This document shows, in pieces, positions 14,147-51,805 of a stretch of DNA of 53,143 bases. The notes below the pieces were generated by a model that searched no databases, was not told the origin of the DNA, and worked only from the letters and a program-made list of their open reading frames with translations. This DNA is from Saccoglossus kowalevskii (Eukaryota; Hemichordata; Enteropneusta; Harrimaniidae). Both the position numbers and the translations under genes were made by a program. Position 1 is the first letter of the stretch, and each line of letters opens with the position of its first letter. The stretch lies in the NCBI RefSeq assembly GCF_000003605.2, contig NW_003140811.1, positions 1,268,659-1,321,801 on the forward strand, in the 5' to 3' direction.

Positions 14147-17100
14147 ATGGGAAAGATTTGGAAGATTGCAGCGGTGCTCACGGTCTTTATTGCAATGTAC
14201 ATTGCATACACACTGAGAGACACGTTTGATCCAGGTGAGGTAAAACAAGACGCCACAAACAACCGCACTATTACTTTGACTCGAAATTTTGATCGCAATA
14301 CAGTGACACCATTTCACTGTGCATTTAGTAGTTTTGCACAACTTGTCTGTACTACGGAGCTGTGTATCACGGTTTCTAGTTCCATTGTAGTACCAATGGC
14401 CGGTGATGCTTCAACTCAACTGACATGAGTTAGTTGAACGCGTTGCATGCCATATTTGATGTGCGTCAGAAAATTAAAGGTGAAACGCGGCCGCGGAGTA
14501 CATTTATTTGTGCACAATTGTTAAGGTCAAAGTCCGATGTCCAGCTAAGAGTACACAACTACTGAGTATATGCTCGTGAGGTTGTTGCAGTGTAATACCA
14601 GCTGTGTTTGCACGGTGACATTGTCAAGGGGCGTGAGCGAGAGCACAGTAGCACGTACCGTATTACTGCAACAACATCAAGGCTGTCTGTTTGCCCGTGT
14701 TTCAGACCGTTTCCGTCATTTTGCAGCCTACGTTGATATTATCGACTTCGCCATGCCACCTGGTTTCTTCAAAACTAATGCTATTCAGTTTATTTCATGG
14801 AAAAAATTATCGATTTATTACTTTTATTTGTTCATCATAAAATGTCCACTTTAATATTATCAGTGTTATGATTGATATTATTTTCACCAGTCGTTTCAAA
14901 AGTTTCAAGGTTGCAATACGTGTACTGTATTCATAGTTAGTTATCTTAAATATCAAACAAATGTTTTCAAATGTTTCCTTTATATAGTCCTTTACTGAAT
15001 AGTAAAACAGTGCGAGGATACACAATAGGCTTTTATGGGACAGCGCCCTCTATCCAAGAAGTATATGGAGACTGGACGTGGCTAAATTGAATAAAGTTTA
15101 TGCTGAGTGAAAAAAGTTCCGTGGAATAAATAAAAATCAAATGAAAAGGCTTATTTTTATGACCAATCGCTTTAATGTGCTAAACCCTACTTATTTTGGA
15201 TTAGAAAATCGGCAAGACTGAGGTTAATAATTAGCAAATTGATGATATCGATGGAGCACCCCCTCAACTTAAGTAATTGATGAACATTGTTCTCTATTTC
15301 AGGAGTTGGTGAACAGTCCGATGAAAAGCGTTTAATAGTCGAAAATAAGTTGTTGCCAAACAGCGCCCTCTATTTATGTGGTTGAACAACGTCCTCTACT
15401 TATATAGCTAAAGAACAGCGACATAGTCATAGTCCGCACACAAATTAAACAACTTATGTTTCGTGGCCTTTAAATAAAGTGATAATTTGTTATTACAGAA
15501 AGCATACATGGAAAGCGAGTGATTGTGACCGGTGCAAGTACCGGTATTGGTGAACAAGTCGCCTACCAATATGCAAAGCTGGGAGCCAATATATTAATCA
15601 CCGCACGGAGAGAAAACCGACTAAAAGAGGCGAGTGATATTATTAGCATATTCAAGTGTTCTGTAATTCGTCGAACATGTATATGATTTCCCTTGATGTT
15701 TGATACTGTGGCGTAGTTCAGTTTATCGCACCGTGTAGTGGGTAATACACGCTTCAGTCGAGGCCTACTTTTGTTTCCACTACACCACTACTGGCCTAAC
15801 TCGTGCTGGTTATTTACATACATATCATTGACATAGACGTCATGACCACATTACATTAGGGAGCATGTTTGTACTAATAACCATCATGGTCCGAGAAGGG
15901 GCGCTCGCCCCCTCTGCCCATCAAAATCCTCAACTGCCAGCAATAGCGAGTTACAGCCTTAGTGGTTTACTACAAATACATTGCAGTCTTCATATGGATG
16001 AAACTCATCGTCCGCCTGCACGGTGTTGCTCCGTTCGAGCATTCGTGCTTCGCCGGAACATTCACCGTGAGATTTCAAGATGGATGAAACTGTATACTGT
16101 GACATACCCCATATGAATACAACAATAGTTTCAATAAAATAGAGACAAGGAGACAAGTGTAATTTTAAAGGTACAAACTGAATATTCGTCTCTCAAAACC
16201 ATGAGTGGTAGAAATATACATGTATACTATGACATTTTCTGAAAAAGATAATTTCTTTATTTTGTTTATTTTCAATGCAGGTAGTAAAGAAATGTTTAGA
16301 CTTGGGTGCTCAATCCGCACATTACATTTCTCTGGACATGCAAGTCATTAACGAGACTGGTAAATTGATAACTGAAGCTGAGAAGACACTCGGTGGATTG
16401 GATTATCTCGTTTTAAACCACGCCCTCTACTACTGGGAATTATGGGATGGCGATATAGAAAGACTTCAGGCACTAATGAATATCAACTTTGTTTCCTATG
16501 TGAATCTAGCAACCAAAGCACTACCCATGCTGTCTAAGTCTAATGGTAGCATCGCTGTGGTCTCATCTAGTTCAGGTATATGTTTTTTTTATGGAAACAT
16601 CTATCTACATAAAGTATTTTTATATATGAAAAGAATTTAGGTTGAAAGTCAATTGGGAATTTTAAACACTTGTGCCCGCTATTACTGTGGGCCTTGTCCA
16701 AACTGCTGTCATAAAGACATTCCTACAGTTATCAGTTCATTACAGGATTAAATATAAAATCATTCTATAATAATCTAAACCCAAGCTATATCAGACCGAC
16801 CAGTTCTCTTCGATATTCCGACAAGAACCTACTAAGTACACACAACACTGCGAAAAAGAATTTCAGTTTTCAACATTATGAATTCTTTCGTTTTTTGGGA
16901 GAAAATGTTTTAATAACAATGATTTTGACAAGATAATTCAAAAAATTATACCAAGAATAATTCAAAACGAAATATATTCCCTATGTACCCATAAATAATT
17001 ATCGATTACACAAGAATACTACCGAAAAAAAGAAATTTGCTATATTCTCTATATTTTTGCTTGTTATTTGTCTTGAATTATGACTGAACGAAGCTGAATG

Positions 17101-18056
17101 AAATTACAAACTATGTAATGTGTTTAGCGACACATGTATGAACACTAACTTTTAATAAATATGATTTCCTATAGTAGGAGTGATGTGCTAAAAGTTGGAC
17201 GGGCATCGAATTTGAGTATTTTTTTGTTACATTTATTTGATTGATTGCGTCAGCTACATTTATTACAGGCGCTGCTGATGAGCAAATTTATATGAATATT
17301 TACAAGTTTAGAACACAAAGCAAACTACTGACAACATTTGACAAAACAATCCTCAACATAACAAAACCTTAGCAATTACACTACAAACAAGTAGTATATA
17401 TAACCAACTAAAACTAAAACATAATGTTCTCGATGTGATAAAACAACAATTATATTTTTTATAAATAACCAATTCGAGTTTTTCATATGATTATTTATCT
17501 CGGGTATGTCAATTGAAGCTTAATTGATTTACTCTTGATTCATAATTACCATGTGGATCCCAGCAGCAACGCATTTTACGCCTTGTATGTCAGAAGTGTC
17601 CAGAAAATGTGACCCTACATAAACGCAACCCTAACCAGCATGCTTATATTTAATTATAATCATTACATTGTTTTTCTTTCTATAGGTTTAGTCAGTGTAC
17701 CTGCTGTTATTCCATATTCTGCCTCAAAACACGCATTGAATGGATTCATTGAAGGACTAAGACTTGAACTCGAGTATATGGGAATTGATGTAGCAATAAC
17801 GCTACTTTTAATTGGTGGGGTGTCCACGGATCACATGATTGACATTGTACAACGTCGTGAAACCTTAGCACAGTTCGGTGAGCCAGCTGAGGCTGCCTCA
17901 TTCATCATGAAGGCGGCAAGTTCTAAAAGGACAGTTGCTTACTACCCCTGGGCAATTGTCAGGATACCTGAAATAATACATACTATGTCACGTGATCTGA
18001 GTGATTTCATGATGTCAAGATGGATGTTTCCAGCTCTGCGAAGGCGGAAGATGTAG
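14147..18056 (+). CDS. HSD11B1L: HSD11B1-like short-chain dehydrogenase, gene A
   Basis: Four coding exons: 14147-14234, 15499-15629, 16281-16575 and 17686-18056 (885 bases, 294 residues; phases 1, 0, 1). Residues 1-29 hold a short N-terminal membrane anchor (VLTVFIAMYIAY), as in ER-bound 11-beta-hydroxysteroid dehydrogenase 1. The Rossmann motif TGASTGIGE is at 40-48. TARRE after the second beta strand has the Arg expected for NADP(H). The catalytic tetrad is Asn142 (MNINF), Ser169 (VVSS), Tyr182 and Lys186 (YSASK), one residue off the vertebrate numbering. The family reduces or oxidises steroid and other carbonyl substrates. The first ATG in ATCAACATGG context was chosen because it is shared by genes C and D. 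Intron 2 has a GC donor (GAG before GCGAGT). The stop follows a basic tail (LRRRKM). HSD11B1 versus HSD11B1L orthology is unresolved. Confidence 0.88.
15256..15420. repeat. Degenerate tandem repeat in intron 1 of gene A
   Basis: Successive phrases of the type GAACA-CG-CCTCTA-TTAT occur at 15283, 15360, 15390 and 15415 (for example AACAGCGCCCTCTATTTATG and AACAACGTCCTCTACTTATA, about 31 bases apart). It includes the GCGCCCTCTA motif discussed in the findings. Confidence 0.5.
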
Positions 18057-20048: not shown

Positions 20049-20160
20049 NNNNNNNNNNNNNNNNNNNNNNNNNNNNNNNNNNNNNNNNNNNNNNNNNNNN
20101 NNNNNNNNNNNNNNNNNNNNNNNNNNNNNNNNNNNNNNNNNNNNNNNNNNNNNNNNNNNN
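20049..20160. other. Assembly gap (N run)
   Basis: 112 N characters. Any open frame across it is an artefact. Confidence 1.
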
Positions 20161-22218: not shown

Positions 22219-25200
22219 ATGGCAAAGTTTTGGAAGATAGTAGGACTGATAATCGTGTTCATTGCAATGTACATTGCATACACATCGAAAGACACATTTG
22301 ATCCAGGTGAGATAACACTATTATGTGGACGCTACAGTTTGATGGCGATCTAGTGGCACGACTTTATTCAGTGACTGTGCATACATTATGTCTCAATGGC
22401 CGGCGCATGATCATGACTTTAGTCAGTTGTTATGTGCGTGGTTGGGCCACGACGTCCCTTTCATGGGATTGACAATTTTAGGGGCTGCTGAACCGAGTGC
22501 CCACCTCTTCCGACCTGCCAGGCTATAGGTAGTTTAATTTAAAATAGAATATGTGCGTTTACTGTATGTGCAATGATTATAAGGGATTATCCATTTAAAC
22601 ACGTGGAGGGTATGGGTCGCTAAGACATTGGTTTCCATCAACTACTTTATTCAAATCTGCAAGACTACAAATATAGTTTTGGACTTATTGTCCTTGTTTT
22701 ACACAACCTGTTATTCCTACAGCAACAAATTGGTTTTCTCGATATGCTCCAGCACCACGCTTGATGGTTGTGTCAAGGCCATGTCAAAGTCTAGGGGTCA
22801 AACTGCAATGTACATTACAATATACGGAAAGACGACAAACAAATAAAAAAAATTGTTGACAACGTCTGCTTCATGACATTTATATGTTAAGCCTTGGAAG
22901 TAAATTTGTTATTGCAGAAAGCATACGTGGGAAGCGAGTGATTGTGACTGGTGCAAGTACCGGTATTGGTGAACAAGTTGCCTACCAATATGCAAAACTG
23001 GGAGCCAATATATTAATCACTGCTCGGAGAGAGACCCTACTCAAACAGGTGAGTGTTATCATTATTATACACCATCTCCATTGTTAAGAATACATTTGTT
23101 TCAACATGTTATCAGCTGATTTTAAGATACAGCATAAAAATGTTCCGAGTAAATTTTTAATAGCGCCCTCTATAGATACATAATTTTATGACATTTGACT
23201 ATCAGACACAAACTGATTTCAAGAAAATGCAATGCTTATGAAGAATTTTGGTGTGGTTTTTACGTGAAAATATCAATCTGACTAAATGCATAATACCCAG
23301 AAATAAGATTAATTAGTTTCGTTTTTAATTGGGGGTGGGTAGATTTTTTTTTAATTTTGACAAAAACCTACACACCTGTTCATGTTCACCTGCATATGTA
23401 CCTTTCTATGCCCCGGTACATAGTGTCAATACATCCACACACAGTCACATCAAAGATATTTAACACTCATCATTTTGTAATTTGGTGTGTTTGCTAACCA
23501 GTATCCTAATCCCATCTCCACTAATCTAACCCAACCTCCGCTAACCTAACCCAACCTCCGCTAACCTAACCTAACCTAACTTTACCTAATGTAGGTTAAT
23601 AAATGCACTACAATTACACCACAATTCTCCTTCCAGAGCAGTGACTTCTCTATCCGCTCCCCGTAAAATAATGACAGAAGAGCTGCCTTGTCTGACGGGT
23701 TTGGTTTATTTTAAATGCAGGTTGTAAAGAAATGTTTAGACTTGGGTGCTCAATCCGCACATTACATTTCTTTGGACATGCAAGTCATTAACGAGACCGG
23801 TAAATTGATAACTGAAGCTGAGAAGACACTTGGTGGACTGGATTATCTCGTTTTAAACCACGCCCTCTACTACTGGGAATTATGGGATGGCGATATCGAG
23901 AGACTTCAGGCACTAATGAATATCAACTTTGTTTCCTATGTGAATCTAGCAACCAAAGCACTACCCATGCTGTCTAAGTCTAATGGTAGCATTGTTGTAG
24001 TATCATCGGGTGCAGGTAAGTCGATTGTTTTCAATTTCCATGAAACTAACCATTTATATCTACCTACTTTATATTTGTGAATGAAACGAGCAAATTTTAA
24101 GTATGGGAGCATTGGAGATGCCAAGTAAAAATATCTTGTATATTTGTCGATATATTGTTGTTTGACATGGCAAGTTCATAATTAACGTGAATTGTGATTT
24201 ATTTTGAACTGAAAAAAAAAATGACATTTTTCGCTACATATGTGCACTGCTTGTTTTGACATATACAATATTAGTTAGTGCACATACGCGTTGGTGTTTT
24301 CCATTTTTCATCAAAGGAATACTATTTTGTGTGCCGCAAAAATATCTTAATAAATCCTAATCCAGTGTTCTGTCAATAACATTATTAAAAATACAGCTGT
24401 TTTGCAGTAATTGCATGTAAGCTTTACAAGAATGACAAAGATCATAGTGCTTGTTGCTAGGAATAACTCCATAATACTGTATTTATTTTCACATTAATTT
24501 AGTTTTACTATTTGGATATTTTGAACATTCGCTGGGTTTCAAGGTCAACAATTGTCCAGGGAAACAACGAATTCACTTGTTATTTCGCATGTTCAATTGA
24601 ATTTAATTCAGCGGAATATAATTATCAGCAAGAATGAAACCCAGTGAATGATTATTGGATTTACAGTATTACATTCAAGAACATATATATTTAGTCAGCA
24701 TTATATATGTACACGCAATGCATCACTGGGAATTATATATGCGCATAATTAACGAAACTATGTGTCGGGCTAATGGTACATTCAAATCGCTTCATCCATA
24801 TGGACAATGTCCAGTAGTAGTAAACGCAGAGCTGCAATAGTTCTTCTGAAATTAGATACGCAAATGATCTAATTTTCCATCTCCCAATGAGGTCACGTGA
24901 CCAACTAATTATTTATCCTAATCCAATTAGTAGTATATGTGCATCTGCGTTAGATTTCGGAGGATTGCTTTTGTGCATAATTGATGAGGTCAGGTGACCA
25001 TTTAATACTTTATCCAAATTGTTTTATCCATGTGAATATTGTTCAGTTTGCAGTAAATGCAAATCTTAAATAGTTTTCTAGCGATTTAATATGTACATAA
25101 CTAATGAGGTCACACGACACCCTCCAAATCACCACCATCACTTTTATTAACAGGTATTTAACCTAAGAACTAAATTCCAGCCTAAAACGCATACCTCATT

Positions 25201-27775
25201 TTGAAATTCTATCCATCAATGTATTTCCTTTTCACTGAATAGTATAATTTCTGAATAAATGCACTACATGAGATTGTCGTTCAAATACCGTAGGGAATAG
25301 TGGCTCAGACAACTAATAATCAAATGAAATTCATATACAAATTTCAGTTACTAATAACTATCAAGTCATGTGTCTAATTTCAGCATATGCGTCGTTCCAT
25401 GTGGAGATATGTAACCATACCAACATAGATCGGGAAACTTTCATCTATTGAACTGGACACTTAATGTTTTAGGAAAATAATGAATGCAAAAATAACAATG
25501 AATATTCACTTCAATATTGCATCAGTTATAGCATATACAGATTCGGTCTATATAGCGGATGTGCATAGTATTTTGTCAGCTATTAGGTTTAGTGATTTAA
25601 TTAGTAACGTCTTGTTGTCAATGCAATAATTCTATTTAATTTTGCTCTGATCTGCTTCGTCATACACTATAAATACATCATCGCTCTCATCGCTTTTGTT
25701 ACATCATATTCATCAATTTTTTTTCAGTAACTTTTTTTAAACCTTCTGTGTAAGTGATAGGCCATTTTCCGTTCATTGCGAGATCTCACATTATGCGCGA
25801 AAACAGGGCAAAATTTGCTATACTCCTTTGATGATGGTCAACTTTGATTAAGTAACGCCATTTTGAAAGATCGGTATTCGAGATTGAACTATAAAAAGAA
25901 ATTCAAGTTCAAAAACAAATCGTTAAATCTCCGTGGCTGACGTTCGGTCTGCGCCTTTCACGCATCACGCGAGATCTCGAAGTGAACAGAAAATTACCTA
26001 CATAAGCTATTCAATGGCAACAGCGGCAATTTCTTCTGATCTTATATCGTATGCTGTTTAATTGTTACTACTAGAAATTTTAGCATTTTAAAGTTGAAAG
26101 TTGTTTTAGGACCTCAATTAATGTTATCACTATTATGTAATTTCATAAGTTTGTCTTCTATAAAATCAAAATGATTGACAGTAGTCATTTGGAGATATAT
26201 ATGGTCATCTAATTCTCGTGAAATATTTAAAATTATCAATTTTACAATCATATTTGATAATTTATACATATATTTATATTTTATTGCGAATTATGTATAC
26301 ATATAGCTGACACTCACAGTGTGACCGTAGTTAGTATAGTAAGCATTACACGATGTGATTAAGCACAGTCTAGTATTGTAGATTAATTATCATGGTGAAA
26401 ACTTTCCAATAAATCATATGAACGATCGTTAGGTCATATCTTGAAAAGTGAGAAATATCATCACAGTAATGTGCTTTTAATATGCCTATAACTAACAAAG
26501 TGATAATGGAGATCATGAGTGGTGAGTGAGGGGAGGTGAGTGAAGTTAATAGTCTTCAACATTTTGGTTGGTGTAAATAGCGAGCAAATAGTGAGAAAAT
26601 GATAATTTAGTCAACCAAAATTCATTTTCCATCTTCTTGGCGTTGCTTGGATATGCATCATTTTTTCAGCATGTGTGCAGCGTTACTATTACATTGATAT
26701 AAACTGTTTTGGACACTTGGGAAATCAAATCACCACGTGGCATGATAAACTACAAAATGTAGCACATAAACATACACTACACCAGTCACAGACCGTCTCA
26801 AATATATATAATCATTACTTAAAATACTAATTTTAAATATTGCCTATTTCTGTTTCATGTACCTACAATATTTCATAGCACATGGGAGTTCTTTTTTTAC
26901 CTTGCTGTTGTGTGTTAAAACTTGATATTAACATCAATTATTGTATGTCATTGTTAAAGAGCTTTTCGTGTTGTTTTTACCCATTGCTCAGATAAACGTT
27001 AACGGACTTTATTTAAATTTGGCAAACTTATTTTCAGGTTGGGTTTTGGTGAAATTTAGCCTGTTTTTTCAATAAGGATTATAATATTAAATATCTATTG
27101 CTGAACATCTGATTTGTTATTAATCTCCATCCAAGTCTTCTCAAAATGGTGCTACAATTGGTAATTTAAAACAGAAACTTCTAAAATCTGATTAAAACTA
27201 ATTACATGACTATAAATTATGGCATTCCAGTCTGCTTTCAATAAATTGTACTATGATTGTAAACGAATCAAGGTATATGTCAGATAGGTTTTATACTGAA
27301 CATTGCATTTGTATGTTCTTTACACACATATTTACTCATATGGTGGCAGTATTTTTTGGTGTATAGCTGAAACGCATTATAATTTGTGTACACAGGAACC
27401 ATGGGAATACCATCTATGATCCGATACTCCGCTTCCAAATTTGCAATTCATGGGTTTTTCTCCGGATTAAGACAGGAACTGAATTTACAAAGAAAAAACA
27501 TTTCCATATCTGTTTGTGTACTTGGTTTAATTGACACAAAACATTCCATGGAAGGAACGAAACAGTTCCTTAGTGCAGGTCATCCAGCTGGAGCACCAAC
27601 GGTGTCGTCGGTAGAGGATACCGCCATACAGATAATAAAGACAGGCTCTGCTGGGATCAGAGAATTGTATTATCCATATTCTCAAACACGCATTGTTCAG
27701 CTTATATATACATTCTTTCCAAATTTCATTGAATTTTTGGTGAATTCAAGCATAGATTTAAACGCCCTGGAATAG
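22219..27775 (+). CDS. HSD11B1L: HSD11B1-like short-chain dehydrogenase, gene B (with terminal exon 4a)
   Basis: Exons 22219-22306, 22918-23048 and 23721-24015 join in phase (1, 0, 1) to the first available terminal exon, 27396-27775; 297 residues. The anchor is residues 1-29 (MAKFWKIVGL then IVFIAMYIAY). The cofactor motif is TGASTGIGE, Asn is in MNINF, Ser in VVSSGAG, and the YSASK catalytic pair is in exon 4a. Exon 4a is the most vertebrate-like of all exon 4 versions here: YSASKFAIHGFF and CVLGLIDT resemble the vertebrate 11-beta-HSD1 segments. Intron 3 is long (3380 bases) against 1.1-1.7 kb in the sister genes. Two further intact exon 4 versions follow at 28348 and 30673, so this gene may have alternative ends. 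AATAAA at 28094-28099 would serve exon 4a. An in-frame upstream ATG at 22141 is probably not used, since the sister genes start at the MGK/MAK position. Confidence 0.82.
23510..23600. repeat. CCTAA-rich short repeat in intron 2 of gene B
   Basis: Repeats of CTAACCTAACC and CAACCTCCGCTAACCTAAC. The (CCTAA)n portion resembles pentameric telomere-type repeats but is short, degenerate and internal. Confidence 0.7.
24475..24668. mobile_element. Non-autonomous inverted-repeat element, TACTGTAAA family, copy 3
   Basis: Starts TACTGTATTT and ends TTTACAGTA. Internal TTCGCTGGGTTTC and GAAACCCAGTGAA are inverted partners shared with copy 2. It is 194 bases long, non-coding and lies in intron 3 of gene B. 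Confidence 0.65.
24770..25125. repeat. Three degenerate tandem units with GGTCACGTGACC-type palindromes
   Basis: Units of about 100-120 bases in gene B intron 3. Shared phrases are ATTCAAATCG / CCAAATTG, CATCCATATGGACAATGT / ATCCATGTGAATATTGTT, AGTAAA-GCA and GCATAATT-ATGAGGTCA. The palindrome is perfect at 24891-24902, has one mismatch at 24988-24999, and is decayed at 25108-25118. Confidence 0.55.
25754..26000. mobile_element. Fold-back element in intron 3 of gene B
   Basis: Left arm at about 25754-25803 (GATAGGCCATTTTCCGTTCA, GCGAGATCTC, ATTATGCGCGAAA) is the imperfect inverse of the right arm at about 25953-26000 (TTTCACGCATCACGC, GAGATCTCG, GTGAACAGAAAATTACCTAC). The arms are about 48 bases with a spacer of about 150 bases and no coding capacity. 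Confidence 0.6.
27396..27775 (+). CDS. Terminal exon 4a of gene B (vertebrate-like type)
   Basis: Acceptor ACACAG just before 27396. The split Gly codon is completed in the same phase as in genes A, C and D. It encodes GTMGIPSMIRYSASK, then CVLGLIDTKHSM, then LYYPYSQTRI, and ends in DLNALE. The catalytic Tyr and Lys are intact. It lacks the TDH and SRDL phrases of the other exon 4 copies and carries a longer loop after CVLGLIDT (SAGHPAGAPTVSSVE). Confidence 0.8.
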
Positions 27776-28347
27776 TAGAATATCTTAACATGTGGTAATT
27801 GAAAAATAATCAGCAAAACGCTGTTACAATTCTCAATATGTGTAATAACCTAGATCCAGTTAAAATGAATATATTATTTGTGCAAGGTACTATACCTGCA
27901 ATAAACGTAATAAACGTTATGTATTTCAACAGCTGTTTGTTTTTTTCTAACTCGACACAGATGTGTATTGTATGTTGTAATACATATTTGACTCGTATTA
28001 GCAGTTTTCTTCTTAACATGAATTAGTTTAATGCATTAGTTTAACCGTTATATTGTTTAATCACTTTTGAAAATACCCAATACTAGTCTGGCCAATAAAA
28101 ATACTTATCAACCAGTTCCTCCCAATGTTAATTTCCAAATATCATTTAAGCACTTATTATATAAATAGCTTTTATTCATTATTTTGCATACTGTAAAATA
28201 TATTGAATGTTTATTATATGTGTTATTAAAATAACATAATTCACAATCAATGAGTTATAAATGTCTAATTTTTTCTCTATGGTTGGTTTGTTTCTAGAGT
28301 TGATAAACTGAAAATGTACTTGGTACTATATTTTGTCTATATTGTAG

Positions 28348-28760
28348 GTCTTACTAGTCTACCATTGGCTCTGACGTACTGTGCTACCAAACATGCAATT
28401 GGTGGATTCTTTGAAGGATTTCGACTTGAACTAGAGTACACAAAGAAAAATGTTGCTGTTACTATTTTTATCCCGGGAGTCATTGCCACCGAACATGCAT
28501 TCGATGTTGGTGAACAGCTTGAAGTAGATACTTACGCAATGGGCATGTTTATTTCTCCAGTTGACACAGCCATGGAATTAATTAAGTCTGCATCCGCCAG
28601 ATTAAGAATATCCTATTATCCATGGTTTCATTCCAGGCCATTAGAATTCATACACACTCTGTCACGAGATTTATGTGATTGGTTAACTTTCAAGATAGCA
28701 TCTAAATTCATGGGAATAATGGAAGATAAAAAGAATAATTTATACAAAAAAATAACCTAA
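28348..28760 (+). CDS. Alternative terminal exon 4b (or orphan 3' exon) of an HSD11B1-like gene
   Basis: Acceptor TTGTAG before 28348, same phase. It encodes GLTSLPLALTYCATK, FFEGFRLELEY, then GVIATEHAFD and YYPWFHSRPLEFIHTLSRDL, with a lysine-rich end. The catalytic pair is Tyr...Lys in YCATK. At 136 residues it is the longest version, with an added tail of about 20 residues. AATAAA lies at 28773-28778, only 13 bases after the stop. No exon 1-3 copy lies between 4a and 4b, so it can be used only by joining to gene B exon 3, unless it is a dead remnant. The open frame and the intact splice and active sites argue against decay. Confidence 0.72.
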
Positions 28761-30672
28761 TCTAGATTTAAAAATAAAGTTATTCCACGCGAACCATCAT
28801 TAGTTTGCAAATATTTCTGCAGAACAATATTTAAATAGATAGTTGTAATTTATACGTTCATCTTAAATGCCTTCACATTTCCAGTCAACTTGGTATGAAA
28901 ATGTCACACATGGATTTACTGATGTATAATATATATTTTAAATGATAAAATCATGCCCAAGCTCAGTTTTAACATTTGTCTCATGTCCTTTTATTCAAAA
29001 TATTGTTCAATACGTAGCTCATACATAGTCACTGGTTGAATAAAGCCTATGTCCAATTGACCAAGATTCAAATTATTGGCTAGAGCCTCGGATTTTGTTT
29101 ATTTCTTTCATACAAATTCTCTTGTACGATGAAGAGCATTAGCGATCAATAGAACGTGCACAGTTGGCAAGTCAACATCAACAAAACACGGATATCATTC
29201 ATCTAACTACTGAGCTATTGTAATATTGCTTGGTATTATTAATTTTATCCACCATCTTAAGTCTTTATGTAAATGAACATACGTTCAGCAATTTGCACAA
29301 GCCATGCAGTCAATTACTGAATCTTTTACGTGATATAATTAAACACATTCACTCGAAAGTAGGGGTTATTGGACATTATGCCAATAATGCCACATTCATG
29401 GGCGGTTTTTCAAATCGCACCCGCGCTTGTAGGCAGTTCTAGAATCACCAGGAGTGTATTCAAGATAGTTCAAGAACTACCCGGAATTTGTTCATAGAAT
29501 TCACCTAGTGCAACTGCCTCTTCTGACTGAACTTAACTGGTGATTGATGAAGGCATGCAATAAGTGACCAATGATAAATGCATGCATTATATGTGTCATG
29601 CTATGTACGTCCAGGTACATTTGGTTCAATTCGCCATTAATTTGTGTATCTACTCAAACAGTTACATAACACATAACGCATATGGGAACTACTATTTAAA
29701 TGAATATCAATGGTTCAAATAACGCGGATGATTCTGGAACATATTGGTAACAATCACTATGCAATTACGCGGTGTTCTGATGGACTAAATACCAATGAGT
29801 ATTCTATTGTGTGTATTAATGGAAATAAGCTCTGCGTATGTATATACATTAGTCCGTTTACCCACTAAGGATTGACCGAGTGGTTCAGATGAGACATAAT
29901 GCAATATATAATTTGTTTCATTCAATGTTCAATATGCCCATTAATGTGTTACAGTTGTCACAATGTGCCATGCTATTTTGTGTGATCACAATATTTTATT
30001 CAAAAACAAACTAATAACTTGTTTTCTTTAGCTTGTAATGTTGCCTTAATCGTATTATATGTATATATTTTTATGTCAGCAAATTGCATTAATTTATTTT
30101 TCTTCTGCAAATGCCTAAAAGAATTAGGTTATCATGATCGACTTATTCTAACACATTTGGCTAAGATCATTCACGTTTTAAAAACGACAATGACCTGTTG
30201 AATTACCAAATAGGTGGCATACATTGCCCCACTATTTGACCTGAATAAATTTGCTTAACATAAAAGCATCATAACCTTTTCAGTATAATAATGTTGCTGA
30301 AGATAAAAGATCTTACTCCGAAAAAATCTTAACTCTTGCTGATTGATGTTCAGCTATATAACTAAAATATACCTTATATAACAAGAATACACCTACATAT
30401 GAGATACTGTATTTCAAATCCTGTAATCTGTTTGAAGCTTTGATTGTAATTTGAAGCGTGAGGAACGTCACCTGCCCATGCGGGAATTGAGACACAAGCG
30501 ACGATAACAACACACGCTAATGACGCTAAGACTAATGGGTAGACACGCTATGGACACCTGCCGCATGCGTAGGTGACGACTCTCCCGCTTTAATCATTTC
30601 TATTTACAGTACATTCAACAGCCACGTTTGAAGTGAATCAATGTAAATGATTGTATTATGTTCCACTTGCAG

Positions 30673-31058
30673 GATTGTTTTGTATGCCTGCTGCTATTTC
30701 ATACTGTGCCTCAAAACATGCTCTGAATGGTTTCTTCGAAGGCCTCAGACTTGAACTTAACTATATGGAAATTGATGTACATGTAACGCTGCTCTTAATT
30801 GGTGCCGTAGCCACCGATCATGCAATCGATATTTTAAAAAGTGGTCAGTCTGCTAGTGACGACTTCATGGCGATTTATGGTGATCCAGCTGTAGCAGCGT
30901 CAGTCATTATGACAACTTCATGCCGTAAACAGACATCCGCTTACTACCCATGGGCAATTGTTAGAACCCCTGAAATTATGCATACTATATCACGTGATCT
31001 ATTTGATTTTGTGTCTTCAAAGTGGATGTTTCCAGAACTGAGAAGTATATTGCTATAA
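30673..31058 (+). CDS. Alternative terminal exon 4c (or orphan 3' exon) of an HSD11B1-like gene
   Basis: Acceptor CTTGCAG before 30673, same phase. It encodes GLFCMPAAISYCASKHALNG, then LLLIGAVATDHAIDI, YYPWAIVRTPEIMHTISRDL and an end of WMFPELRSILL. The catalytic Tyr and Lys are intact. It is close to the exon 4 of genes A and C, but has an insertion of a few residues around KSGQSASDDFM. No exons 1-3 of its own were found between 28760 and 30673. It is either a third alternative end of gene B (intron 6657 bases) or the surviving end of a truncated gene copy. Confidence 0.72.
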
Positions 31059-32304: not shown

Positions 32305-33168
32305 ACATTGTTTTCACTTTGTGCATCTCAAATAACAGACACATAACAGATGTATAGCTTCTTGTGTGGAAGCCTTATCTAAGATTTTGAATTATTTTTT
32401 AAATGCGTCTCCAATACTCTCAACACACGAAAGTTCTTTCTAAGTTTACTTTGATTGAACCTGGGACTTGATGTAGCTTTTGTTTTTATAGGCCATTCAG
32501 AAGTTGCAACACAGTTATCTACTACCCATGTTCACATGATAGACCATTGGATATAATTCGCATCCTTTTCTGTGAATGAATTTTATCTTCGTGGCGGTGG
32601 CCTGTTTTGACAAGTAGTAGACCCTAGTATCGTAAATGGCAATAAGATAAATTGTCTGAGAGATATTTGTTTGCTGAATATGAATCTTTTATCATTTTAA
32701 GTGGAGGTGGCCTGTTTTGACAAGTAGTAGACCATAGTATCGTAAGTGACAATAAGATAAAAAGGATAAAACATATTAATTAATAGTAGTGCTAGTTTGA
32801 TCAGAATCATAGTCAAATAGCGCAGAACATTATTCAGTTACTGTAATGCATATCATTGGCTAAACTATTGTAATACTTGAATTTCACAGTACTCAGTGGG
32901 TGCGGTAGGAAGCAACGTTGAGGTAATGTATAACAAGTAGTAATGAGTCATGTTATCCATCAATCGTAAACTATGTTTACTTTGTCATATTACTGACTGT
33001 CGGATTCCTTGCGTCATGTGATTGCTTCGTTATTTACATAAGGGGTTCTTTTTTATGTGCGTAAACATGATCTAAATGAACGTTTCATGGATATGGTTAT
33101 TTAGGTGGGAATTTTACATTATGATGGAATAGAATGTGACATTGTTCACTTTAACCACTATATCTAAT
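32305..33168 (+). repeat. Segmental duplication, copy 1 (B-C spacer)
   Basis: Matches 46187-46955 in the same orientation. Shared phrases in order: TTTTCACTTTGTGCATCTCA, AATGCGTCTCCAATACTC, CAAATAGCGCAGAACAT, CATATTACTGACTGTCGGAT, ATTTACATAAGGGGT, AAATGAACGTTTCATGG and GATGGAATAGAATGTGA. The two copies differ by many indels. Confidence 0.75.
32591..32760 (+). repeat. 60-base direct repeat, two copies 110 bases apart
   Basis: 32591-32650 and 32701-32760 both begin GTGG(C/A)GGTGGCCTGTTTTG and end CAATAAGATAA, with only a few mismatches. This block is absent from the duplicate at 46 kb, so it was gained after the duplication or lost there. Confidence 0.8.
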
Positions 33169-37148: not shown

Positions 37149-40100
37149 ATGGGAAAGTTTTGGAACATAATAGGACTGCTTATAGTGTTCATTGCAATGT
37201 ACATTGCATACACAGCGAGAAATACCTTCGATCCAGGTGAGATAACACTATTACTTTAAGACACAATGTGACAACAAAGATATAGAGAAGTTACACAACA
37301 GACCTTTAAAGCACCAACAATATATACAACTGTGACCTAGATTCTGAAATGTTCTATTCGCAACCATGGCATATTGTTGTCAGTGTTACCAGGTTTATTT
37401 ATGTAGTATTTTGTTACCGACACCATTAGAGACGACGTCAAAAGATCGATGTCGTATAAAAAACTTACTTAATTTAGGTTGGGGGTGGGGGTGACCTCAA
37501 AAACTTTCCATTCTACAAAAACGATTCTATTTTTTAATGAAGTCAAAACAATCTTGTAGTATTTGTAGTTTATTTTCTATCCAATCATGGACAAAAATAA
37601 CAGAAAATGAAAAAAAAATCCAACACGAGAAATTTTTTTGGTCCAAGTTTAAATATGTGCGTCAAATGAGGTCAATTTCAGGGCATGGACCTAGAACCAA
37701 CTGCTATGCAATACTACTGTCCGATTATCAATTTATATTTAATGGTGAATGTAGTCTGACCTCATGATCAATATTTATCTATTAAGTTTCAGTGGGGGGG
37801 CGCTAAAGCAATTACATTTTTTATCCTACATTGAACTTTTGATGTTGTCTCGTAATCTGTGTAATATTTTCTCAGTTGACATAATTTCATAATAGCAACA
37901 ACAGAGACGCTGATTAGTGTTATATTCCATTGGACATAGGTTATATAAGCCCTGCTTGTGTAGTTGATAGTTGAGACTACGCTCTCGCCTGAGCCTGAAC
38001 AGATTTATATTCATGTAATTACAATTCTAGTATAATACTTACACTACGCCACCACATACACTTAATGTAAGGGGTCGGGAGCAATGCTTAGAATGACGAC
38101 ACATAATATTGTCATCCATTGTGTAATTTCATTGTTTTCCTGCCCTACAACAATCTCGATAAAGATTCTGCCCTAAGATCAGTTTTGAAAAGAATAATTT
38201 ATTCAGCCTTTAAAACAGGAACACTATTCACCTTGCCAGTTAAGTAAAAGCTTGGAGTCAAGGAGTGTATACTACAATTATGTAGTTACGTTATTGCTAC
38301 AGTTTAAAATACTAAATTATTCAACACTTTAAAGAAACGTTGGGGTAAAACAAAACAGCGGTGTTACAATCCTTTACTTAAAGACACGTATGACAACTTT
38401 CGTTTCGTGACATATGTTCATTCCTAGATATAGTGTAATAAGTTGTCATTGCAGAAAGCATACGTGGGAAGCGAGTGGTTGTCACTGGTGCAAGTACCGG
38501 TATTGGAGAAAAAGTCGCCTACCAATATGCAAAGCTGGGAGCCAATATATTAATCACTGCTCGAAGAGAGATCCGTCTTAAACAGGTGAGTGTTATCATT
38601 ATTATATGCTATCTGCATAGTATTTTGCATTCTAGAGTTGTTGTGATTATCCTGTATCATTTTTAAGTAACCATACAATATATGTATTAAAATGGGACAC
38701 AACTAAGACGGATTTCATTATTCGTAAACGTTAAACATATCTGTATCGTAGACTTTGGCATGATCATCTGACATTGAAATTAGAAATATGTTTAACTTTG
38801 ACCACAAAACAGGACGAGAAACATTTCCCAGTTTTCGAAAAACATGGTTTTTACATTTTTTGATCAGAAAATTTAACAAAATGTATTGGAAATGAAGATA
38901 ATTTTACTTTTTATTATGATCGAATATAGAAAAGTATTATTGTATGTCACAAGTGTGCCTAAAGTGCCTGTGAAATAGTCCACGACTACAAAAACCATCA
39001 ATGTATACGTTGTCAAGTGATTTCGAAATGGTGCCTCTATACACAAAATAACTGTATGACTTTTGATGGCGTAGTAATAGACTAACCGAACACAAAACAC
39101 AAAATGGTACATATATATGCAAGGATATATGTCCTTTCAACTAACATAAAATATTTTTAAACAAAATGCAATGGTTTACAGAACATTTGGGTGAGAAATA
39201 ATTTTCATGAAAAGAAAAATAAATCGATGCATTGTTTAACACCAGATGTCCCACCTGATGATATATCTTTTCAACTTGTTTTCCACAACCTTGTTTTGCT
39301 AAAATATATGCGAACAGCTGAAACGTGCCTTGCCCATCCGACTATTAAACGCATATTAAATTGGTTTCGCACTCTATTATTCGAACCTAATTATTGTGTT
39401 TCCTGTATTTCTAAGTCACTATAAGGTGATATATTCTGACGATTTATTTTCTGTGCAGGTAATAAACATATTCTGAAAATAATAATAATTTGTTTTCAAT
39501 GCAGGTAGTGAAGAAATGTTTAGAATTGGGTGCCCAATCCGCACATTACATTTCTCTAGACATGCAAGTTATTAACGAGACTGGTAAATTGATAACTGAA
39601 GCTGAGAAGATACTCGGTGGATTGGATTATCTCGTTTTAAACCACGCCATCTACAACATGAAATTATGGGATGGCGATATCGAAAGACTTCATGCACTAA
39701 TGAATATCAACTTTGTTTCCTATGTGAATCTAGCAACCAAAGCACTACCCATGCTGTCAACGTCTAATGGTAGCATCGCTGTGGTCTCATCTGGTACAGG
39801 TGACTCTTTTCATTTGCGTTTTTCATGGTAATAATTATGTATAATAACCAGTGCGTGCTTGTTTCCGTCGTTTCCAGCAGTTATCAAGTTGATCGTTCAT
39901 ATTTGATAGGTGTGCATCGTAAGTCCCACACGAAAGTGCCAATGATTGTATTTTATTCTCACTTTTGTTCTGAAAGGTAGCGCCTTTTTCTTAGGCTTGT
40001 GTCAATTACCATCTTGTATCAATCATTATTAAATTATTGTTAGACCAGACATTGAGTATCCAGCGTTGTTTGCACAAGGTTAGCGTGAATGTCTAATTAT

Positions 40101-41913
40101 TTTACTGACGTGTATTTATTTGGTGCCACATTTTGAATTTATATAACATATGAAAATATTAAAAACGTTGTTTTAAAATGACATTGTAAAGTGGCTGCAC
40201 TTTGTGCTGAAGAAAACGAATGACATGACTGATGCCCCACCTTTTTTTTTTAGAAAATTTAAACATAGATATTTTTTTCGGTTCGCATCTTTGATATCAT
40301 TGACTTCCTTGAAAGACAGGTATACTTTGGTTTGAGATAACAGCAACTAAATATTACCTAACCCTCGTACATTTTTAACCTAAACACAAAACACAAATAC
40401 ATACTATTCACATAACAACTTAGTACAGAGTATGTGTAGTATGTTCATGACGTTTGGAAGTTTGTCAATGACATATAAACAAATAAATACTTTTAATGGA
40501 TTATTGTGTTTGTAACATTTTTTTTTAATTTTCACGGAAGTTTCCATTAGCATCAATGTCTGAATTGGCCACACTTGAAAATGATTGGCTTTAACCCACC
40601 AATCATTGACGGTAGTAACTTTTTTAACTCGTTCAAATTCAGCGTTGTTTGTGATTCATTTTACCCTCGGAATCCCCCAACTTTGATTGTGCTTAAATTG
40701 TTTGATACCAACAATTACCAATGCCTTTAACTAAATGATAACTAAATGATAACTGATGATAACTAATGATAACTGATGATAACGAAATCAGTTGCAGTAA
40801 GTGATTACAGTGTCTATTGTTCTAACGGCAATACCTACAATGCCAACAAATAATTAAGGCTGATTACCAAACAAAACCGTCAACAATACATTTTGCACTC
40901 CGAATTTATGTCACGAAACGGACACAGGACTAGTGTTGTGCAAGAACATAGTTTTAAGGTAGAGATGCAGGTTCGTGGGTACTTGGGAGTGAATTTTTTT
41001 TTGCGTTTTATTATTCAAAAAGTCTTGTGAATAGTGGAACATACTCAAAAAACGATTTTAAAATATAGATAACAGGTGCAAAATTATGTCTTTTGAATGC
41101 TTAGCAAGATTTAGCAAGGCTGTACATAAATATTGGGTGTTAATTTATGCATAAACCTGAAGTAGTGAAAATTGAGCTGCTGCCCTACAAAATTGACAAC
41201 TGGTAGACAGTTTTCAAGACGGCGCTTTCTTCATAGTAAACAGATGTACCCATAAACCATTTTTGACAGGAAACAGAAGCATGGTTTAGAAGCTATTTTT
41301 TTAAAATCACTTTTGACCAAAAAAGCACATTTTTGTGCATATTTCAAACTACAGTGTCCATAAAAATAAAATACTAATAACACTTTAAAATTCATACAAT
41401 AAGCTTTCCGAAAATATATAGTTTTGTGGACAAGGGAGGTCATCTTGGTTTCCTAATTAACTAATTAAAATACCTGTCAGGTAAACTGCATCTCTACCTT
41501 AAGTGTTCATTGTCCATAATCATTGTGTTGTTTTTCTTGCAGGCCTGTTTAGTTTGCCCGGTGCGGTTTCCTATTCTGCCTCAAAACACGCCTTGAATGG
41601 GTTCTTTGAAGGATTGAGACTTGAACTCAAATATAAGGAAATCGATGTAGCTGTAACATTGCTTTTACTTGGTGGTATAACCACTGATCATGTGATTGAT
41701 ATGTTACCGAATCGTGACACTTTGGCACATTTTGGTGACCCAACTGAGGCTGCCTCATTCATCGTGAAAGCCACAAGTTCCAAACAGACATGGGCTTACT
41801 ACCCTTGGGTTGGTGTAAGAACCATGGAAATAATACATACTATTTCACGTGATCTAATTCATGTCATGATAGCAAACTGGTTTTTCCCAATGCTGAGAAT
41901 ACTGAAGATATAG
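37149..41913 (+). CDS. HSD11B1L: HSD11B1-like short-chain dehydrogenase, gene C
   Basis: Exons 37149-37236, 38455-38585, 39505-39799 and 41543-41913 (885 bases, 294 residues; phases 1, 0, 1), all with GT donors. The anchor is MGKFWNIIGLLIVFIAMYIA. The cofactor motif TGASTGIGE is followed by KVAYQYAKLGA, and TARRE gives the NADP(H)-type Arg. Asn142 is in MNINF and Ser169 in VVSSGTG. YSASK carries Tyr182 and Lys186, and the end is WFFPMLRILKI. Predicted role: membrane-anchored carbonyl/hydroxysteroid reductase of the ER, substrate unknown. Exon 3 differs from its siblings at a handful of residues (HAIYNMKLWDGDIERLHAL). A TTAA-flanked MITE ends only 40 bases before the exon 4 acceptor. AATAAA is at 42104-42109. 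The 5' flank (CGACACATACACATATCAAC before the ATG) pairs it with gene D. Confidence 0.9.
40730..40786. repeat. GATAACT/GATGATAACT minisatellite in intron 3 of gene C
   Basis: About six imperfect copies of ATGATAACTA/G in a row. The repeat is rich in GATA sites. Confidence 0.8.
40954..41502. mobile_element. TTAA-flanked MITE (piggyBac-like ends)
   Basis: Perfect 17-base terminal inverted repeats: TTAAGGTAGAGATGCAG at 40954-40970 and its exact complement at 41486-41502. Both ends include TTAA, the target site duplicated by piggyBac-type transposases (established knowledge). It is 549 bases with no transposase frame, so non-autonomous. It sits in intron 3 of gene C just before the exon 4 polypyrimidine tract. 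Confidence 0.75.
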
Positions 41914-42178: not shown

Positions 42179-42671
42179 NNNNNNNNNNNNNNNNNNNNNN
42201 NNNNNNNNNNNNNNNNNNNNNNNNNNNNNNNNNNNNNNNNNNNNNNNNNNNNNNNNNNNNNNNNNNNNNNNNNNNNNNNNNNNNNNNNNNNNNNNNNNNN
42301 NNNNNNNNNNNNNNNNNNNNNNNNNNNNNNNNNNNNNNNNNNNNNNNNNNNNNNNNNNNNNNNNNNNNNNNNNNNNNNNNNNNNNNNNNNNNNNNNNNNN
42401 NNNNNNNNNNNNNNNNNNNNNNNNNNNNNNNNNNNNNNNNNNNNNNNNNNNNNNNNNNNNNNNNNNNNNNNNNNNNNNNNNNNNNNNNNNNNNNNNNNNN
42501 NNNNNNNNNNNNNNNNNNNNNNNNNNNNNNNNNNNNNNNNNNNNNNNNNNNNNNNNNNNNNNNNNNNNNNNNNNNNNNNNNNNNNNNNNNNNNNNNNNNN
42601 NNNNNNNNNNNNNNNNNNNNNNNNNNNNNNNNNNNNNNNNNNNNNNNNNNNNNNNNNNNNNNNNNNNNNNN
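42179..42671. other. Assembly gap (N run)
   Basis: 493 N characters just after gene C. Exons of a minus-strand gene fragment could be hidden here. Open frames running through it are artefacts. Confidence 1.
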
Positions 42672-43799: not shown

Positions 43800-43949
43800 C
43801 TCAAACGAGTCTCTCGATGCGAAGGCAATGTAAACAGCAAGCAATGCAATACATACCCCAGATGTTTTCCAAACAATGTTTTTATGAGTAGAATGTGGTT
43901 TGCTTACAAGAATTATATCAAACAGTGAAATAGAAATGTTTTGTTGCAA
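43800..43949 (-). pseudogene. Exon 1-like fragment of an HSD11B1-like gene, reversed
   Basis: On the minus strand, IVWKTSGVCIALLAVYIAFA followed by SRDSFE aligns with exon 1 of the array (MGKFWNIVGLLIVFIAMYIA then SRDTFDP). It ends at GAG before GTCAGA, four bases shorter than the siblings' GATCCAG end. The conserved start ATG is lost, though an in-frame ATG lies further upstream at 43949. No partner exons 2-4 follow on this strand outside the gap. It is probably a relic. Confidence 0.55.
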
Positions 43950-44555: not shown

Positions 44556-44692
44556 CTGTGAATATTATATGTAACACTCTACAAGAGCAGAGGTTAGTAT
44601 ATCAGCTCCAAGTTTTGCATAATGGCAGGCAACTTGTTCAACAATACCTGTACTTGCACCAGTCACGATCACTCGTTTCACACGTATACTCT
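44556..44692 (-). pseudogene. Exon 2-like fragment of an HSD11B1-like gene, reversed and broken
   Basis: On the minus strand after a TATTGCAG acceptor: ESIRVKRVIVTGASTGIVEQ, then VACHYAKLGADILTSA, then a stop codon TAA before the end. The third Gly of the TGASTGIGE cofactor motif has become Val, and ARRE is lost, so the encoded fold could not bind NADP(H) normally. It lies upstream of the exon 1-like fragment on the minus strand, the wrong order for one gene. So it is either a rearranged pseudogene or the remains of two copies. Confidence 0.8.
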
Positions 44693-44699
44693 CTGCAAT

Positions 44700-47970: not shown

Positions 47971-50900
47971 ATGGGAAAGTTTTGGAACATAGTAGGACTG
48001 CTCATTGTGTTCATTGCAATGTACATTGCATACACATCGAGAGATACCTTCGATCCAGGTGAGATAACACTATTACTTTAATGCCCATGCCCTGTGAATT
48101 TATTAATTTGTACTTGGCTTTGTAGTTGGCGTAATAGAGACCTTGACATACGTCAGCTACGCGTACGTGATACACGACGAGAGTACATATATGAAGTGAA
48201 ACCGCTCACTTCAATTTTAAAAAATGTTAGTAAACGTAAATGACACTTCGTATCCTCGGTCGTTGAAACCCACTCACACTCACAGTAAGCTGGCGCACAC
48301 GTGATCATAAAATAAATACGATATTTACTATATGGGGCCGCCATCTTGAATGCAGCGTAAAACTAAATAAGAGACAAGTTGTGAAACGCGTTTTCCAGAT
48401 TCCTGCAAATCAGGACAAAAATACCAATCTTTCACAAAAATGTGATCCGTTGGACGTTCTTCTATTGGACCGTCGGTTCCTGTCCTAACCTGTCAGCTCT
48501 CAATTAAGTCTAGGACTTCAGGTTTCCTGAATATTACTGACGTTTCACTGGAAACATCACCAGGCGACCCGATGAAAATATATCAACATAAGTTTTGTTT
48601 GAATTATGTTACACTAGACCACCACATGCAGGTTTTGTAAAATGTTACCTATTTAAAAATTGGCAAGGTTGAATGGAATTACTTCTGCGTGATAACAAAT
48701 ATATTTCATCCTTCATTGTTTTAGGGACATTGATTTCTGCCCTTCTACCACAACATACTTCCAGTAGCCTCCAGTCCTCCGCCCAGTTTTCAACTTGGTA
48801 TCCCTATGTTCATACATTTTATTAATCAGAAATCATCTTACCGGTCACGTACATGTTAGGGGTCAATGTTTAATCAGTTATTGTTACAGTTTAAAACACT
48901 GAATTATTTATTTGATTACTGAGCGGCTCAGGGGAGCAGGAAAGTGTATTTTTTCAAGAAAAAGGCAGGACAAGCATTGTATTCAGATAAACGAAGAAGT
49001 AGAAAAATTCAACAGGATATAGAAACTTTACTCCCCGCTCCTATCCCGCAGTACAAGTGTTCTGTCAGAATGCAGAACTGAATTAAGGAGTAGTCATTGT
49101 TACAAGTCTTCATCACATTACACAATTGATGACATCTACTTCATGAAATATGTTAAACCTTGGAATTAGAATAATAATATTTTATTGCAGAAAGCATACG
49201 TGGGAAGCGAGTAATTGTGACTGGTGCAAGTACCGGTATTGGAGAAAAGGTCGCCTACCAATATGCAAAGCTGGGAGCCAATATACTAGTCACTGCTCGG
49301 AGAGAGAACCGACTCAAGCAGGCGAGTGATGTTGCAATTTCATGTAAAGAAAAATTCTGTCCCTATTGCATAGACATATACACCTCACTTTGTATTTGGC
49401 TTATACAAGTGCTTTTTATATATCGAGTTTTTAGTATCACACGGAGCACCCCTCAGAGTTAATGTCACAATCCTGTAATAATCGTACTTGATTCAACCTT
49501 TATTTCGTGGTTAGAGTATTCTATTTGTGGAATGTGTCACTGCAATATAATAAACTATGACATAACCTGACAAATTCCTTCATTGGGACATGTTTTACGA
49601 CATTAGCATCTTACATTTGGCGTGTTCTTTCGACAATGAAATAAAATGTATGTTTTAATAATTTCAATTCTGAAAATAGCGCCCTCTATACAAGAAATAC
49701 TATTCACATCGTTTTTAAAGACTAACATGCACAGACTGACACCAAGGCAATGCAAAAGCTTATGAAATTGATGCAGTAAATAATATGGGCCATACAAGTA
49801 AAAAAATAACTTTTCATTGTTTTACATCATTTACATTTTTCAAAAAAATTTCTTTCAAAACTTATGATCAAATATAAAACAGTGCTGTTGAACACCCAAT
49901 TTCAAAATACACACGATGAACAAAAACGTAATATTCATTATTATTATAATCAGTATTAACCTTTGTTGTCCACCTTTGGCATTCGAACATAACATTGTTT
50001 TTAACTAGTACGTAAGTAAATATAAGGATACTTTACATATTCTGAAGATATTAACAATTTATTTTCAATGCAGGTAGTAAAGAAATGTTTAGACTTGGGT
50101 GCTCAATCCGCACATTACATTTCTCTAGACATGCAAGTCATTGACGAGACTGGTGAATTGATAACTGAAGCTGAGAAGACACTCGGTGGATTAGATTATC
50201 TCGTTTTAAACCACGCCCTCTACAACGTGGAATTATGGGATGGCGATATCGAGGGACTTCAGGCACTAATGAATATCAACTTTTTTTCTTATGCGAATCT
50301 AGCAACCAAAGCACTACCCATGCTGTCAAAGTCTAATGGTAGCATCGCTGTGGTCTCATCATTTGCAGGTAAGTCGATTATTTTCAGTTTGGTACCACAA
50401 TGTCAATACCAGTCTAAAATTGTATTTTTACATCCCCAGTGATTTAACCTGTCAAATACAAACGGAAATATATTGTTATGTAGCCTTACATAGCAACATA
50501 TACTCAATGTAAACCTAGAATAGAGTATTAGCCGAGGAAAAATACTATTACCGGTCTGCCACCATTATAATTTGAAAAAATCACGTGACCCGAACCACAA
50601 ACACACGCGTCTTTATTGTTGTACGTGACAACAAAAATAGTCTCTATCACGGAGTACGACGTAAAGTATGTACTACTAATGAGCTGTTTGATCTGTGGTA
50701 GGTCAACGCCGGCCAACAACGCTCCCGATAAACATTTGGTGGCGTCATATTGTCCCTAAGTTACGCATGGGCAGAATACCGAGAAAACTGCGATGTACTT
50801 TGGCGTCGGTTCTAAATTATTTTAATTATTCTCGCTGTTGAACGAGAACGCGGTTCCACAGAAAGTTTAACACTGCATTTTCAGCAAGTTATATAAAGAA

Positions 50901-51805
50901 AAAAAAATAAGAGTTACGAAATGTGTAAATACGCAAAAAATAATTAGTTAGACATAGCTTAATATTAATATTGTGACGTGATTGGACAGAGGGCCGGTGG
51001 ATTAATACACCGCGTGCAGGGTACTGAAAAAGGATAAGACAGTTATATCGTTATGTCGGATAAGACCTTCTTCTCAACCTAGTATAGCATAGTATATCAT
51101 CAAGTGCACAATTGGTATATTCATTTCAGAAGCACATTGCGAATAAAACAGCGTGTATATTTATGGCATACTAGATTACTAAAGTATGGCCTATTATTAC
51201 ATTAGTCAAGTTGAGGTAAAAGAAGGGTATGCCTTCCTATGTTAATATAAATTGTTATGTCTATTGTCAAATACCATCAATTGCCTTTTTCTTTCTTTTC
51301 CTCGAAGTTGACTCTTCACTCTTTCACGTTATAACTAGTATTTACGTACAATGTTTTCTATTGCGTAACATACAATTTATACTTAAGCAGCTGTAGAGCA
51401 AGTATTAATCGGGCCAACAATTGTTCATATTATAATAATCATTGTGTTGTATGTCTTGCAGGTTTGGTCACTATACCATCTATGACTACCTATTCTGCCT
51501 CCAAACACGCATTGAATGGGTTCTTTGAAGGATTTAGGCTTGAACTCAATTATAAGAACATCAATGTATCTATAACACTGCTTTTACTTGGGGTTGTAAC
51601 CACTGATCATGCAATTGAATTGATACAAGATCGTGAAATGTTTGCAAAATACGGCGATCCAGATGAGGCTGCCACTTGCATAATGAAGGCTACGAGTTCC
51701 AAACAGACATGGGCTTACTACCCTTGGGTTGCAGCCAGAATACCTGAAATAATACACACTATTTCACGTGATCTATGTGATGTCATGATGAGATTGAAAA
51801 ATTGA
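47971..51805 (+). CDS. HSD11B1L: HSD11B1-like short-chain dehydrogenase, gene D (short C-terminus)
   Basis: Exons 47971-48058, 49191-49321, 50074-50368 and 51462-51805 (858 bases, 285 residues; phases 1, 0, 1). Intron 2 has a GC donor (CAG before GCGAGT), as in gene A. The anchor is MGKFWNIVGLLIVFIAMYIA. TGASTGIGE and TARRE form the cofactor site. Asn is in MNINF, Ser in VVSSFAG, and Tyr/Lys in YSASK. Exon 4 ends early: after SRDLCDVMM it reads RLKN and stops, so the hydrophobic W-FP-LR tail of genes A and C is missing. Exon 3 carries the most changes (IDETGEL, IEGLQ, NFFSYANLA). AATAAA is at 51931-51936. The 5' flank resembles that of gene C. It is predicted to be an active ER-anchored reductase; the effect of the shorter tail is unknown. 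Confidence 0.88.

Follow-up and report, generated by a model that had tools for sequence, protein, structure and literature searches.

Gene B, an HSD11B1-like gene, probably combines one NADP(H)-binding module with alternative catalytic and substrate-binding terminal exons, which would yield three enzymes by splicing. The gene lies in a window (the whole stretch of DNA that was analysed) of 53,143 nucleotides, corresponding to contig C3160:1268659-1321801 of a 572-Mb assembly in 4,830 contigs. The genes mark the source as an animal, and mitochondrial ND1, in which AAA reads as Lys at conserved positions, speaks against the echinoderm code. This arrangement of one module and three ends, put forward in an earlier note on the same DNA, is favoured by a single set of exons 1-3, by the intact state of all three exon 4 versions, by selection acting on two of them (4b and 4c) and by a repetition of the layout in gene G; the branch test of the third version, 4a (p=0.11), stands on the other side.

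In the mechanism we propose, a single promoter would serve exons 1-3, which encode the presumed membrane anchor, the NADP(H)-binding half and the catalytic Ser. Through three predicted junctions, these exons would be spliced to any one of the homologous terminal exons that stand in tandem behind them, each of the three supplying its own Tyr-x-x-x-Lys motif, substrate pocket, stop codon and 3' end. The three resulting enzymes may well differ in their substrates.

Structure of gene B and its predicted products

Exon 1 (22219..22306, + strand, 88 nt) extends from the ATG to a GT donor and has homologues in genes A, C, D, F and G. It contains the start codon and, as judged by eye, codes for a hydrophobic N-terminal anchor. 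Exon 2 (22918..23048, +), bounded by an AG acceptor and a GT donor, carries the TGxxxGxG cofactor motif in the form TGASTGIG and is 90% identical to the gene A copy over 162 nt. Exon 3 (23721..24015, +), with an AG acceptor and a GTAAGT donor, encodes the remaining cofactor fold and the catalytic Ser region; it shares 95% identity over 319 nt with its counterpart in gene A.

The three versions of exon 4 reported in the earlier note were all found behind exon 3, intact and in gap-free sequence: 4a (27396..27775, +, 380 nt, YSASK, TAG stop), 4b (28348..28760, +, 413 nt, YCATK, TAA stop) and 4c (30673..31058, +, 386 nt, YCASK, TAA stop). The only N-runs of the window are located at 20049-20160 and 42179-42671, none of them within 24016-31058. 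Each version has an AG acceptor, opens in the same phase, keeps Tyr-x-x-x-Lys and ends in its own stop, just as had been described. Also borne out is the statement that no further exons 1-3 occur between the exon 4s: profile HMMs of exons 1-4, run on both strands of 123 kb (including 21.8 kb of N), listed no exon 1-3 homologue at 24016-31058 with E up to 0.05. The copies from which the profiles were built necessarily give strong HMM E-values, and these were not counted as evidence. Support independent of the copy itself came from tblastn, which matched 4a to 4b (E 5e-18), 4b to the gene D exon 4 (E 1e-27) and 4c to the gene A exon 4 (E 1e-46). As the splice phase is identical in all seven genes of the cluster, it is an inherited family trait and by itself no argument for alternative splicing.

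Proteins of 297, 308 and 299 aa are predicted from splicing with 4a, 4b and 4c, and all three match Pfam adh_short (E 8e-43, 1e-40 and 1e-40, respectively). In the PDB, the B-4a protein matches 11beta-HSD1 best (residues 10-275 of 297, E 8.1e-66): the top 23 rows are all 11beta-HSD1 (204-226 bits), and the next row scores 78 bits. Judging by its motifs, Pfam and the closest structure, gene B is an HSD11B1-like gene of the classical SDR type with putative 11-oxo or hydroxysteroid oxidoreductase activity. Exons 4b and 4c taken alone likewise have 11beta-HSD1 as their best match, and comparison of solved 11beta-HSD1 with single exons gave E 1.2e-16 for 4a, 5.4e-7 for 4b and 1e-6 for 4c. Against chain 2irw_A, five of the 11 exon-4 copies were compared, and among these five 4a (64.2 bits) is the closest to solved 11beta-HSD1, followed by K4 (54.0), A4 (33.2), 4c (29.6) and 4b (28.7).

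In human 11beta-HSD1 numbering we take the catalytic Ser170 to fall in exon 3 and Tyr183 with Lys187 to fall in exon 4, and the alignment of the B-4a protein with 11beta-HSD1 is consistent with this placement. Positions 177, 180 and 217, which presumably line the substrate pocket, are by eye I/M/L in 4a, L/A/V in 4b and M/A/A in 4c.

Nearby AATAAA signals, noted earlier for 4a and 4b, are indeed there: two of them (27900..27914, +) 125 and 134 nt past the 4a stop, and one (28773..28778, +) 13 nt past the 4b stop. 4c has no AATAAA within 600 nt downstream, the nearest one being at +675, and ATTAAA is likewise absent over 800 nt. AATAAA is present within 200 nt of 8 out of 10 exon 4s of the cluster, 4a and 4b included and 4c excluded. 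Its background frequency is 0.27-0.34 per 200 nt (N left out); since the hexamer is this common here, little can be read into any single case. The pyrimidine tract of the 4a acceptor is poor, with 11 pyrimidines out of 20 versus 13-17 in the other seven plus-strand exons and 12 and 14 in gene G, which could reflect regulation or weakness. When the 500 nt next to the donor were matched with the 400 nt that precede each terminal exon, competing RNA pairing did not exceed that of 60 dinucleotide shuffles, with z from +0.26 to +0.73. Exon choice would most likely depend on how acceptors and poly(A) sites compete.

The gene cluster and the history of its terminal exons

Searches of the 572-Mb genome, in which only the best candidates were scored, led to the same 11 exon-4 places with 4a and with 4b among the matches listed, and to eight places with exon 3, also among the matches listed. 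Ten of these exon 4s and seven of the exon 3s make up the cluster on C3160, and one of each is on C3574 (gene K). The reading frame is open in all 11 exon-4 places listed. Genes A to F share one strand and gene G is on the opposite one. A single terminal exon is present in each of A, C, D, E and F, three in B and two in G.

Besides B, the window contains three genes with one terminal exon each: A (14147..18056, +; exons 14147-14234, 15499-15629, 16281-16575 and 17686-18056), C (37149..41913, +; exons 37149-37236, 38455-38585, 39505-39799 and 41543-41913) and D (47971..51805, +; exons 47971-48058, 49191-49321, 50074-50368 and 51462-51805). Exon 1 of gene E was not found with the HMM, and a 14,177-base gap is located upstream of E exon 2. 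The exon-2 donor is GC and not GT in three out of seven genes, which seems unusually many: gcgagt in A (window 15629/15630) and in D (window 49321/49322), gcaaga in G (contig C3160 1366242, minus strand).

Gene G, inverted and about 59 kb downstream, has one set of exons 1-3 (profile HMM matches at contig C3160 1370274-1370361, 1366242-1366372 and 1365714-1366008, minus strand) followed by two terminal exons, G4x and G4y, whose first full codons are at contig positions 1360337 and 1359042 (minus strand, profile HMM). The 903 bp separating G4x and G4y contain no N-run and no exon 1-3 match. No relics of 4a or 4b were detected by tblastn in intron 3 of gene G, which contains a 1,579-base gap; a further terminal exon may lie in this gap. 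G4y (contig C3160 1358692-1359042, minus strand) is five codons shorter than its relatives in the STDHM / TTDHV stretch, the frame being kept, and the deficit is near the presumed substrate loop.

The cluster also contains decayed pieces. An inverted exon 2 (window 44568-44704, minus strand) is 82-87% identical to the intact copies of the window; an exon-1-like piece lies at window 43800-43877 (minus strand), in an order relative to the inverted exon 2 that makes no gene. A second inverted exon-2 relic is found at contig 1356818-1356928. Stretches of about 1.5 kb downstream of C and F (contig C3160 about 1313.2-1314.7 kb, that is, window 44.5-46.0 kb, and 1356.8-1358.2 kb) are 72% similar. Each of them includes an inverted exon-2 relic, so the two relics seem to be related by copying. 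A possible decayed exon-4 tail at about 32491..32579 (+) gave weak matches (HMM E 0.014 and 0.033; 18 aligned residues, E 0.065 and 0.076). We rejected it as a relic of any weight: the match is weak, and a near-copy at 46.4 kb has diverged from the 32.5-kb one. A non-coding duplicate of about 0.8 kb (window 32306-33150 / 46185-46952, 13.9 kb apart, 76-94% identical in pieces) flanks this possible relic.

In the protein tree of all 11 exon 4s, K4 and 4a separate first, then 4b, then the remainder (bootstrap 97% and 90%). The remaining copies are weakly resolved: the consensus pairs B4c with G4x at 49, and the ML tree does not pair them. The nucleotide tree was built for eight exon 4s, with 4a, 4b and K4 excluded as too divergent; there B4c and G4x are sisters with 98% bootstrap, and G4y is placed among the type of the single-exon genes. 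From the nucleotide tree alone, B4c and G4x probably represent an exon type common to genes B and G. In physical order, the trees would give the types a, b, c in gene B and c, d in gene G. An ancestral array a-b-c-d was probably produced by successive duplication of terminal exons, after which different members would have been lost in different gene copies. Alternatively, the exons may have been duplicated independently after the genes split.

Selection on the terminal exons and alternative readings

The codon model (F3x4, 122 codons, 11 sequences, on a fixed topology that pairs B4c with G4x) gave a one-ratio omega of 0.34 across the exon 4s. In tests of omega=1 on seven terminal branches, neutrality was rejected for A4 (p=0.00014), B4c (p=0.0006), B4b (p=0.0011) and G4y (p=0.005), all of which stay below 0.05 when p is multiplied by seven. 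The results were weaker for G4x (p=0.042, no longer significant after multiplication), K4 (p=0.05) and B4a. Branch omega is 0.27 for 4c and 0.035 for 4b, the latter belonging to a very long fitted branch and not to be taken literally. Hence the dN/dS check of each exon 4 suggested in the earlier note speaks for purifying selection on 4b and 4c and does not reject neutrality of 4a. Omega is an average over the whole branch and is compatible with recent loss of use.

4a has diverged from the other copies nearly to saturation (dS 1.6 to saturated). Constraint on this exon is supported indirectly, by its intact frame together with the highest 11beta-HSD1 similarity of the five copies compared, since an exon long free of constraint would not be expected to top the 11beta-HSD1 list.

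The leading rival reading, to which we would give a small chance, is that partial tandem duplications produced the array and only 4c or 4a is now used in gene B, the others being recently orphaned and still intact. Decay does occur in this cluster, as illustrated by the inverted exon-2 relics and the weak 32.5-kb trace of an exon-4 tail. When neutrality was simulated over 0.1 substitutions/site, B- and G-like frames stayed open in 14-24% of the runs without indels and in 0.4-1.4% when 0.1 indels per substitution were assumed; over 0.05 substitutions/site the corresponding values were 35-49% and 7-11%. Given these survival rates, orphaning within roughly the last 0.05-0.1 substitutions/site is possible, and so it is possible that one gene B terminal exon has recently gone out of use. 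However, 4a, 4b and 4c are all intact at only 25-36% pairwise protein identity (dS 1.53 to saturated), and they are separated from the exon 4s of the other cluster genes by dS of 0.81 to saturated. Omega is significantly below 1 for two of the three, profile HMMs found no exon 1-3 relics beside 4b or 4c, and gene G repeats the layout. The intact frames and the omega values below 1 agree poorly with the alternative named in the earlier note, in which the extra exons remain from truncated copies, unless they fell out of use recently.

Exons 1-3 are unusually uniform over the cluster, and two further readings draw on this. dS is 0.06-0.31 for exon 3 and 0.10-0.44 for exon 2 in all 21 gene pairs, and 0.12-0.69 for exon 1 in 15 pairs (gene E has none). 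The lowest exon-4 dS of a pair exceeds its exon 3 dS in 20 out of 21 gene pairs; a general rule that exon 4 is always more diverged was rejected, as it fails in C-E, where exon 4 has dS 0.16 and exon 3 dS 0.26. Between B and G, dS is 0.81 for the c-type terminal exons and 0.26, 0.17 and 0.31 for exons 1, 2 and 3. In five pairs the ungapped identity is 0.22-0.35 over the 41-100 bases before exon 3 and 0.31-0.44 over the 21-100 bases after it. The spacers of gene B (24016-30672) have no match to the spacers of the other genes with E up to 1e-4; the third introns of C, E and F are still partly alignable. These patterns fit homogenisation of exons 1-3 across the cluster by gene conversion. With exons 1-3 so similar and exon 4s diverging beside them, the cluster would make a natural test case for the action of conversion and selection on the modules of one enzyme.

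It is conceivable, if unlikely, that the whole cluster is a system of shared fronts and variable backs, in which seven fronts kept alike by conversion would be combined with ten diverging backs by splicing within the arrays of B and G and across neighbours, giving a combinatorial steroid- or lipid-modifying repertoire. Less probable still is readthrough or trans-splicing that joins 4a, 4b and 4c to exon 3 of other genes, e.g., A, besides or instead of B. The phase common to all exon 3s and exon 4s of the cluster, the near interchangeability of exons 1-3 and the location of A to F on one strand would permit it, but the nearest upstream donor of the family is that of gene B exon 3, with its consensus-like GTAAGT. 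It is very improbable that 4a, 4b or both belong to genes of their own, which begin with unrelated 5' exons or at an internal start: 4a does hold an ATG in ACCATGG context at its second full codon, but the product would be without the Rossmann half and the cofactor site, and profile HMMs revealed no exon 1-3 homologue in the intervals.

Comparison with known systems

Vertebrate HSD11B1 is linked to gene B by the PDB comparison, in which it is the top match of the B-4a protein; the difference is that here seven copies form one cluster and two of them have candidate alternative terminal exons.

The alternative exons of the Drosophila gene pip (pipe) encode alternative sulfotransferase domains. 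Homologous terminal exons that exclude one another have been reported for fly pip and PGRP-LC, in a source that treats the pip exons under UTRs (PMC9013439); as in gene B, a common set of 5' exons precedes them. Both fly genes belong to other protein families, and competing RNA structures were reported for 3' choice there, whereas none were detected here.

In Anopheles gambiae GSTD1 a common N-terminal exon is joined to alternative C-terminal substrate-binding exons. The likeness to gene B lies in the splice variants of one detoxification-enzyme gene (PMC1761136). The difference is in the fold, which is that of a GST, whereas the predicted product of gene B is an SDR with the catalytic Tyr/Lys in the swapped exon.

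UGT1A, in which thirteen alternate first exons precede four common ones (PMC9013439), likewise splits a substrate part from a shared part by exon choice, but its variable part is at the 5' end and each version has its own promoter. Among human tandem-duplicated-exon events, 77 out of 236 swap homologous C-terminal regions, and the swapped regions of all positions together overlap only 10.7% of predicted functional residues (PMC9741552); in gene B, unlike these, the swapped piece holds the catalytic Tyr/Lys. The earlier note had likened gene B to a mirror of UGT1A at the 3' end. The idea is not new, considering pip (PMC9013439) and the 77 human events (PMC9741552).

No report of an HSD11B1 terminal-exon array was found in the literature searched, which was covered in part, by titles and abstract beginnings. 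Terminal-exon arrays as such are already known, and gene B adds to them a predicted case from the SDR family with Tyr/Lys in the swapped exon. If our reading is true, gene B would exchange, by the choice of its last exon, the dehydrogenase half that is responsible for catalysis and substrate binding, and would be the SDR family's 3' counterpart of UGT1A.
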